A stretch of DNA of 64,000 bases from Methanobrevibacter sp. (GTDB taxonomy: Archaea; Methanobacteriota; Methanobacteria; Methanobacteriales; Methanobacteriaceae): the NCBI GenBank assembly GCA_017434555.1, contig JAFRFB010000016.1, positions 1 through 64,000 of the forward strand. Reading direction: 5' to 3'. The position numbers were made by a program, and so were the translations under genes. Below, in pieces: positions 3,050 through 4,896 of the stretch. Within the stretch, counting starts at the first letter, position 1. Every line of letters begins with the position of its first letter. The notes beneath the pieces were generated by a model that saw only the letters and a list, made by a program, of their open reading frames with translations, was not told the origin of the DNA and searched no databases.

Positions 3050-3205
3050 TCACTTCTCCTCATTTTCAATCCACAACATCATAGCTTCCTCAATAGCTTT
3101 TGAATACCATCCCGTAGTAAACAACAACTTAGAAGAGGCTAATTTACGAAAATACATATCCAAGTCATTATTGACATTAATGGTAACTCTTTTATTTTTA
3201 CTCAT
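3050..3205 (-). CDS. Small ribbon-helix-helix-like protein (51 aa)
   Basis: A short open frame of 51 codons, ATG at 3205 and TGA at 3050-3052. The protein starts with a basic strand (MSKNKRVTINVNNDLDMYF) and continues with two helices (FRKLASSKLL and YSKAIEEAMMLWIENEEK). That order, with the KRVTINV strand, is the layout of CopG/MetJ-type ribbon-helix-helix DNA-binding proteins and small antitoxins. There is no neighbouring toxin gene. Base composition and codon use look like the surrounding genes. The ribosome binding site is weak, so a leaderless or short-leader message is possible. Family assignment is inference from pattern. Confidence 0.65.
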   Translation of the reverse strand: MSKNKRVTINVNNDLDMYFRKLASSKLLFTTGWYSKAIEEAMMLWIENEEK

Positions 3206-3517: not shown

Positions 3518-3609
3518 GAATACACATAGTCATTAACACACCAACATAGTTTTAGATTAGGCAAAAAATATGAAAAGATTTATATATTAATAAAACATAA
3601 GTATTAAAC

Positions 3610-3727
3610 GATATGAAAAAAAATTCATGTCTACAATGAACATCAGTCAACCATTTTATAATCTCCAAATGAGTTCATTGGACAAAAAACACGAAGTAGA
3701 TTAAAGATTTCTACTTCTCCCCCTCCC
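3610..3727 (+). ncRNA. Putative structured small RNA, copy 1
   Basis: A TATA box (TTTATATAT, 3579-3587) is followed about 25 bases later by the likely transcript start near 3610. The predicted RNA has a 5' hairpin (ATGAA/TTCAT, 3613-3627), a second stem (CAATGAAC 3634-3641 with GTTCATTG 3673-3680) whose loop holds ATCTCCAAA at 3661-3669, and a 3' hairpin (GAAGTAGA 3693-3700 with TCTACTTC 3710-3717) followed by a TCCCCCTCCCC tail. The same order of elements recurs in copy 2 at 3982-4098. No convincing protein is encoded: the ATG in the first hairpin gives only an 8-residue frame. The ends are estimates. The ATCTCC loop is complementary to Shine-Dalgarno-type sequences, which suggests, but does not prove, regulation of mRNAs. 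Confidence 0.55.
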
Positions 3728-3981
3728 CTATATGTTAAACATCACGAAATCCATTACTAAATTTAATAGATAATCACGATTTTTATTTAAATTAAAAAAC
3801 TGGCAAATTTTCTAATTTTAAATTAAAAAAAGTATATTGGATAGTATTAATTTAATAAATAATCAAAATTCAGTTGATAATACAAAGAAATAATATTATA
3901 ACAAAAATATAACCTAATATTACAGCATTTGAGATTGAATTTTTAAAAACATTTATATACCATAAAAACATAATATTATAC

Positions 3982-4098
3982 GATATGAAGAAAACTTCAT
4001 TTCAAAATAAATGTTGATAATACATTATTATCTCCAAAAAATTATTTCAACTACGTAGAAAGTAGGTCAAGAGGCCTACTTTCGCAATCCCCCTTATT
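3982..4098 (+). ncRNA. Putative structured small RNA, copy 2
   Basis: The layout matches copy 1: TATA box (TTTATATA, 3952-3959), conserved start region ending CGATATGAA, 5' hairpin ATGAAG-AAAA-CTTCAT (3985-4000), and a second stem (GTTGATAAT 4013-4021 with ATTATTTCAAC 4041-4051, two-base bulge). The loop of that stem contains ATCTCCAAA (4030-4038). An 11-bp 3' hairpin follows (4058-4068 with 4073-4083, loop AAGA), then a C/T-rich tail. The stems are kept while their sequences differ from copy 1, which is the expected mark of a structured RNA. It ends just before the stop codon of the convergent dphB gene. Confidence 0.55.
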
Positions 4099-4104
4099 TT
4101 TAAA

Positions 4105-4896
4105 TTAAACATCATCCAATATCTTTGAATCAGCACCAGCAATCTCTACAAGGTATTCAGCTTCAACGATATGTAAGTCGGCGGGTATAACGATGCAATG
4201 AAGGGGACCGCCAAAATCATATTCGATTAACTCAGAAATTTTATCTGCTTTAACAACAACGTCCCTTGAACCGACACGGGCAATGCCTATGGCCAGAGTG
4301 TCCTCAGTTATCAATCCATCATAATCTATTGAATCTTTAATGTTCATCAGATATTCCAAACCCTGATTGACAGTCATGTAACGGTCTTTATGAGCCTGAA
4401 TATCAAGCAAAACAAGAGTATGCATGTTTGATTTTAAATTCTCTTCAATAGCAACATATGGAGATTTAGGATAAAAATTATAATCCGGAAATGGGATGGT
4501 GGTTACCTTACCGAATTTATAGCCCTGAAGTCCTGAAATGGCAGGTGCTGAAGACAAAATTGAAGATCCGTGAATAACTTCATATTCAATTCCTTTTTTA
4601 GCGCATTGAACTAAAAAGTCACTATGTGTAGTTGCAATTAAGGGGTCTCCACCAGTGATTAAAGCAACATCAGCATCTTTAGCCTCATCGATGAATTTAT
4701 GTTCCTCTTCAACTTCACCTCTGATTAAGACCTCAATTTCTTTACCGACAAGCTCTTCAATTTTATCAAAACTTGAGCCGAATAAACGGGAAGTAAAAAA
4801 TTCAGCATAAATCTTATCAACATTTTTTAAACATTCCAAACCTTTTAGAGAAATGTCCTTTTCATCAAATAATCCTAAACCTACTAAATAAAACAT
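4105..4896 (-). CDS. dphB: Diphthine synthase
   Basis: DphB (Dph5) is the SAM-dependent methyltransferase that methylates the modified histidine of elongation factor 2 on the way to diphthamide. The 263-residue length is typical. The N-terminal FYLVGLGLFDEKDISLKGLE, the TGGDPLIATTHSDF motif (around 82-95) and HGSSILSSAPAISGLQGYKFGK (around 109-130) are hallmark segments of this precorrin-methylase-like family. It is divergent from trm5 across a 38-base gap, so the two share a compact promoter region. Its 3' end faces the small RNA copy 2. Confidence 0.95.
   Translation of the reverse strand: MFYLVGLGLFDEKDISLKGLECLKNVDKIYAEFFTSRLFGSSFDKIEELVGKEIEVLIRGEVEEEHKFIDEAKDADVALITGGDPLIATTHSDFLVQCAKKGIEYEVIHGSSILSSAPAISGLQGYKFGKVTTIPFPDYNFYPKSPYVAIEENLKSNMHTLVLLDIQAHKDRYMTVNQGLEYLMNIKDSIDYDGLITEDTLAIGIARVGSRDVVVKADKISELIEYDFGGPLHCIVIPADLHIVEAEYLVEIAGADSKILDDV

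Follow-up and report, generated by a model that had tools for sequence, protein, structure and literature searches.

The 64,000-nucleotide stretch of Methanobrevibacter DNA analysed here (the window) carries two similar structured regions next to a convergent diphthine synthase gene, which raises the question of whether they encode small RNAs (sRNAs) and, if so, which mRNA such RNAs would act on. An initial annotation, made from the letters alone, had proposed two copies of a regulatory RNA directed at Shine-Dalgarno (SD) sites. The two copies do align over their whole length, and all the elements assigned to them (boxes, shared start, hairpins, loops and C/T-rich tails) are present at the positions given. 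The features of the locus, in window coordinates, are:

3579 to 3586, plus strand: copy 1 TATA box, TTTATATA, placed 22 nt ahead of the putative 5' end; an A-rich BRE lies upstream
3608 to 3735, plus strand: sRNA copy 1, the fdhA-antisense copy (match to covariance model R1 at 3608-3736, E = 1.7e-16; folding z = -5.6)
3609 to 3631, plus strand: 5' hairpin, GATATGAA...TTCATGTC (98% of cells paired; one-sided wobble changes)
3634 to 3641, plus strand: second stem, left arm, CAATGAAC (z = -6.4 for copy 1 when compared with shuffles of the right arm)
3647 to 3669, plus strand: antisense loop TCAACCATTTTATAATCTCCAAA of copy 1, fully complementary to fdhA from the SD across spacer and AUG to codons 2-3
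3673 to 3680, plus strand: right arm of the second stem, GTTCATTG (predicted fold; shuffle test)
3693 to 3717, plus strand: 3' hairpin GAAGTAGA...TCTACTTC, a probable terminator stem (both-sided changes in 5 of 7 pairs)
3718 to 3730, plus strand: C-rich tail, in most members of the genus CUCCCCCC and then U-rich (alignment A2)
3952 to 3959, plus strand: TATA box TTTATATA of copy 2 (sequence; comparison of upstream regions)
3980 to 4102, plus strand: sRNA copy 2, a tandem paralog with a diverged loop (R1 match at 3980-4101, E = 1e-10; folding z = -5.1)
4018 to 4040, plus strand: copy 2 loop region, surrounding ATTATTATCTCCAAAA (fits fdhA of its own genome weakly, at -18.2 kcal/mol)
4105 to 4896, minus strand: dph5/dphB (diphthine synthase), a convergent neighbour and not part of the RNA (NCBIfam TIGR00522; synteny)

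The copies share the start (A)CGATATGAA, at 3608-3617 in copy 1 and 3980-3989 in copy 2, and ATCTCCAAA is common to both loops. The folding scores listed above are relative to dinucleotide shuffles, of which 0 of 200 equalled either copy. Kept pairing, which had been proposed from the window's two copies, is borne out by the relatives: pairing in the 5' and 3' hairpins amounts to 96.8% over 41 members, with changes on both sides in five pairs, a result that 0 of 500 shuffles attain; doubly changed cells number 13, the shuffles giving 1.8. The middle stem differs in sequence between species; of 64 members tested, 31 have a stem that outperforms shuffled flanks (p<0.05). The second stems originally drawn for the two copies fared differently, as CAATGAAC/GTTCATTG forms in the minimum-energy fold of copy 1, while GTTGATAAT/ATTATTTCAAC in copy 2 is possible but not preferred, its place being taken in the favoured fold by a local hairpin, GATAAT...ATTATC.

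Covariance model R1, built after the 41-sequence alignment (A2), has matches in 59 of 139 genomes of the family, with E values down to 1e-20. Homologs with the pairing kept, on which the initial annotation had made its proposal hinge, thus occur across related genomes. The true carriers comprise 57 genomes in the window's genus and one in another genus (G089). The match in G022 (contig C173) is not counted as an sRNA because it is the fdhA start read backwards; the match in G009 (contig C14) and the third match of G014 likewise correspond to the fdhA start on the other strand. Within the genus the gene commonly occurs twice, a few hundred bases separating the copies; in the 57 genomes it adjoins that of diphthine synthase as a single copy or a tandem pair. 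A blastn search with copy 1 recovered relatives in most genomes of the genus and none in 24 genomes outside it; shorter orthologs lie at the same dph5 locus in two further genera, dph5 marking the locus in all three by synteny. The hosts include Methanobrevibacter millerae, M. thaueri and many uncultured Methanobrevibacter of the rumen and gut. No Rfam 15 family exceeded its gathering threshold in the window except for two tRNAs, and between 3500 and 4200 the sole match with E<1 was a 14-bit, opposite-strand hit to the model of the lncRNA GHRLOS. C/D box guide RNAs were considered as well; inspection of the 41-sequence alignment revealed no conserved CUGA or RUGAUGA, and Rfam gave no snoRNA match.

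The arrangement of the gene is itself conserved. An A-rich BRE, a TATA box and a conserved TATA-to-start spacer lead to a start at (A/T)CGATRTG, followed by the 5' hairpin, the large-loop second hairpin, the 3' hairpin GGAAGTAG...CTACTTCC, CUCCCCCC and a U-rich end. TATA box, BRE and spacer are kept across 77 upstream regions; together with the conserved 3' hairpin and the C/U tail they are sequence signals of the kind that a separate transcription unit would carry.

The loop of copy 1 points to a single target. Its sequence, 5'-TCAACCATTTTATAATCTCCAAA-3', pairs with 5'-TTTGGAGATTATAAAATGGTTGA-3' of fdhA over 23 nt with zero mismatches; about 1e-6 such matches would be expected by chance in the genome. 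In blastn searches nearly every genome of the genus has one extra exact match to query bases 68-90 beyond the sRNA loci, which in the window's own genome is the reverse complement of the fdhA start, and the fdhA start is the best non-sRNA match of the loop in most relatives. The gene is identified as fdhA by its match to TIGR01591 (Fdh-alpha, 912 bits) and by its neighbours, a gene for an Fnt-family (formate/nitrite) transporter upstream, one for an FrhB-like F420 subunit downstream and an adjacent moaA. The sRNA and its target are unlinked, lying on different contigs (C117 and C65) in the window's own genome and at 1,907,459 and 2,382,885, respectively, in the single-contig genome G014. The calculated duplex energy is -36.3 kcal/mol, compared with a mean of -13.4 (sd 4.3) for 301 start regions from approximately 331 kb of the same genome (about 267 kb of three contigs, plus the window), giving z = -5.3; the best start region other than fdhA reaches -28.5 kcal/mol, roughly 8 weaker. 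Where a genome of the genus has both sRNA and fdhA, the duplex nearly always falls between -27 and -42 kcal/mol. The loop, which is AU-rich with one CUCC, is mostly unpaired in predicted sRNA ensembles (0.88 for AUCUCC, 0.63 for the core); for the fdhA start region the prediction is of moderate openness (0.41). For copy 1, therefore, the proposal of an SD-pairing RNA family can be narrowed to a single gene on the strength of a perfect 23-nt duplex and comparative data; the suggested kinship with the 'CU-rich-loop' RNAs of other methanogens is an analogy only.

We consider it likely that copy 1 encodes a trans-acting structured sRNA that blocks translation of fdhA, its loop pairing over the start region. 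A short, structured, independent transcript, often from a tandem gene pair, would expose the 23-nt antisense stretch in the second hairpin, whose large loop would pair in trans with the fdhA cistron of the fdhC-fdhA-fdhB mRNA, the duplex covering the SD (GGAG), the spacer, the AUG and the first codons. With SD, spacer, AUG and codons 2-3 buried by pairing, blocked initiation would be the simplest outcome: ribosome entry would be prevented, and less FdhA, the alpha subunit of the F420-dependent formate dehydrogenase, would be made. As the loop exactly complements the ribosome start site of fdhA, the sRNA most likely shuts off the formate-using enzyme; since fdhA follows fdhC, it could lower FdhA separately and spare the formate transporter FdhC encoded upstream. 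The trigger might be formate or H2 supply, or limitation for Mo, W or Fe, all of which are guesses.

The complementarity between loop and fdhA has been conserved through evolution, with some exceptions, as seen from the co-occurrence and joint loss of the two partners. Positions -17 to -1 of fdhA are 87% identical between genomes of the genus, against 49% for -45 to -21 and 50-75% for four other SD-led genes in the same comparison, from which dphB and trm5 were left out as RBS comparators because they have no SD. The string GGAGATTATAAA precedes fdhA in 15 of 17 genomes compared directly and the next-best matching gene, which encodes a 253-aa membrane protein, in 10 of the 17. Changes in the loop are often neutral for pairing, as in TCAAYCAT, where U replaces C opposite G; since neither loop nor target varies much, there is little base-by-base covariation between them. 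Scoring the presence of the loop core TTTATAATCT against a canonical fdhA start region, at assembled loci only, gave 45/2 versus 4/9 (Fisher p = 2.3e-6, by hand tally and with phylogeny ignored). G005 and G032 were omitted from the tally, and a loss of the sRNA there was withdrawn, since their dph5 locus is unassembled.

Where the fdhA start has changed, the RNA has changed as well in several genomes: the loop has diverged in G013, the RNA is degenerate in G008, and no sRNA is present at the assembled dph5 locus of G030. On the FdhA tree these departures in the fdhA start fall in at least three separate lineages. Genus g20 is split, G069 having both the sRNA and the fdhA start and G067 and G068 neither; the sampled genomes of g22, g21 and g17 have neither sRNA nor canonical fdhA start. 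In genus g23, GGAGATTATAAAATGG is kept and a shorter ortholog lies at dph5 in most assembled cases, with most of the loops complementing mainly the SD and spacer (-19.5 to -24 kcal/mol). The exceptions to co-occurrence are G086, which has a canonical fdhA start and no sRNA found within 1.5 kb of dph5, G097, in which the sRNA is degenerate, G028 and G116, which keep the core loop despite a changed fdhA start, and G010 and G021.

These observations bear on several other accounts of the locus. The loop could belong to a general anti-SD RNA that masks many GGAGAUUAUAAAAUG-type leaders, with fdhA as one member of a regulon, an account that we regard as possible, if rather unlikely. GGAGAT occurs in 5% of sampled leaders, GGAGATTATAAAATG doubles as a local consensus RBS (the string occurs in a further gene family, in 10 of 17 genomes), and the gene for the 253-aa membrane protein, with its -28.5 kcal/mol in the window's own genome, shares TTTGGAGATTATAAAATG in many genomes; the core loops that G028 and G116 keep without an fdhA match would also fit a broader role. 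What distinguishes fdhA from such leaders is that the loop complements its codons 2-3 besides the RBS, that its duplex energy stands well beyond that of every other sampled start region, and that the spacer of the 253-aa protein gene varies more, as the counts of canonical starts given above indicate. On another account, pairing would activate or stabilise the fdh mRNA, or the fdhA leader would act as a sponge that titrates the sRNA. There is precedent in Methanosarcina, whose sRNA154 stabilises some mRNAs and masks the RBS of another (PMC5867862), but a duplex over both SD and AUG makes pairing and initiation mutually exclusive uses of one site, and we consider activation or titration improbable.

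It has also to be asked whether an RNA is involved at all. The conserved parts might be DNA operators for a transcription factor. On this reading the 5' 'hairpin' would be an inverted repeat (GATATGAA-N-TTCATRTC) located at the start site, and the loop match would be what is left of an inverted fdhA fragment. The ACGATRTG of the sRNA start does recur, conserved, approximately 205 nt upstream of fdhC in most genomes; however, the antisense loop and the 3' hairpin, the latter with compensatory changes, lie 40-110 nt downstream, and with its flanks turning over, such a remnant should not have remained almost perfect in several genera; we consider this account very improbable. That two AT-rich hairpin regions merely resemble each other by chance, or that the locus encodes a small protein, has a negligible probability: the low complexity of the region is all that speaks for either, and both are refuted by the 57 genomes of the genus with the E values given above, the kept hairpin pairing and the lack of a conserved frame. 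From member to member the longest ATG frame varies between 2 and 41 aa; with no frame conserved, a small ORF within the sRNA was ruled out.

Masking of the fdhA start, which we favour for the loop of copy 1, is not supported for copy 2. The initial annotation had treated the latter as an equal partner, but its loop no longer fits fdhA, and a duplex scan of the 301 start regions of its own genome gave no convincing outlier as a target. A blastn search with this loop, covering G000 and G014, returned a match in G014 (88% over 38 nt, E = 3.6e-6), which was treated as chance because the matching stretch is part of a coding sequence in a different species and has no counterpart in the window's own genome. 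The fdhA loop is kept in both copies in, for example, G023, G035, G101 and G110, while in other genomes, including that of the window, the second copy has drifted from fdhA; copy 2 may be decaying or may have been re-aimed. The recurrence of ACGATRTG may reflect a regulator common to the sRNA and fdhC. A more speculative extension, which we consider possible but less likely than not, is that sRNA and fdhCAB operon form one circuit with ACGATRTG as a shared operator, in which the RNA uncouples FdhA from FdhC and tandem second copies are being re-aimed at new start regions, providing a visible series of archaeal sRNA retargeting.

RBS masking as a principle is already known, while the sRNA family, its host group and the archaeal target pair appear new. 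In Methanosarcina mazei, the glnA2 RBS is covered by loop 2 of sRNA154, and sRNA41 does the same to RBSs within polycistronic ACDS mRNAs, the described targets of the two being nif/gln and ACDS mRNAs (PMC5867862). Without being assigned to their families, the present sRNA resembles them in being trans-encoded in an archaeal methanogen and in carrying an anti-RBS sequence, and would resemble them in repressing translation; it shares the placement of that sequence in a hairpin loop with sRNA154 and an RBS inside a polycistronic mRNA with sRNA41. By their descriptions it is set apart from both in order, locus and targets, theirs lying in nitrogen and ACDS metabolism, as well as in its single, perfect 23-nt duplex reaching into fdhA codons 2-3 and its often tandem gene. 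In staphylococci, IsrR covers the SD and AUG of an fdhA mRNA with a duplex of about 31 bp and impairs its translation (PMC9410917). The present sRNA would likewise cover SD and AUG of an fdhA mRNA for formate dehydrogenase with a long duplex. IsrR is bacterial, regulated by iron through Fur and equipped with C-rich pairing regions for several targets in nitrate respiration, whereas in the present sRNA only the 3' tail, and not the pairing loop, is C-rich; we found no evidence of common ancestry between them.

Methanobrevibacter is the dominant methane producer of the rumen and the human gut and draws its electrons mainly from two sources, one of them formate. A review describes formate methanogenesis in the rumen as a largely untapped area and discusses the low fdh transcripts reported (PMC10658910). 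Our literature search found no sRNA for Methanobrevibacter and no archaeal sRNA for fdhA, and as far as the literature searched shows, a target would here be assigned for the first time to a regulatory sRNA of the Methanobrevibacter group. One implication is that the level of fdh mRNA may not report that of FdhA protein.

A number of further observations were made around these genes. Before fdhC, a non-coding block from about -205 to -80 is highly conserved (L055, L063 and others), with ACGATRTG, TATCATGATTTATCAT, GTATTTAAATATTTCTTTT, the promoter CCTTTTTATATATA and CATAATAC; these are probably transcription-factor sites, and one motif is common to the sRNA start. The fdhC-fdhA gap (L002, 1540-1575) contains a hairpin, AAGAAGC...GCTTCTT, which recurs with varied sequence in relatives and may set differential levels of fdhC and fdhA. 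The 253-aa membrane protein family that shares the RBS TTTGGAGATTATAAAATG (L033, at G000:C71:23202-23501, and L038, L163, L170, L177, L192 and L228) has no Pfam or NCBIfam match; it may be a second target of the sRNA, or TTTGGAGATTATAAAATG may be just a local consensus RBS. At 3050-3205 on the minus strand of the window lies a 51-aa ORF, MSKNKRVTINVNNDLDMYFRK..., which is ribbon-helix-helix-like by eye and has no Pfam match, and a similar ORF adjoins dph5 in G012 and G062. Finally, a contig labelled Cellulosilyticum sp. (L204, JAGAVZ010000229.1) carries a Methanobrevibacter-type fdhA start and is probably a mis-binned archaeal contig.
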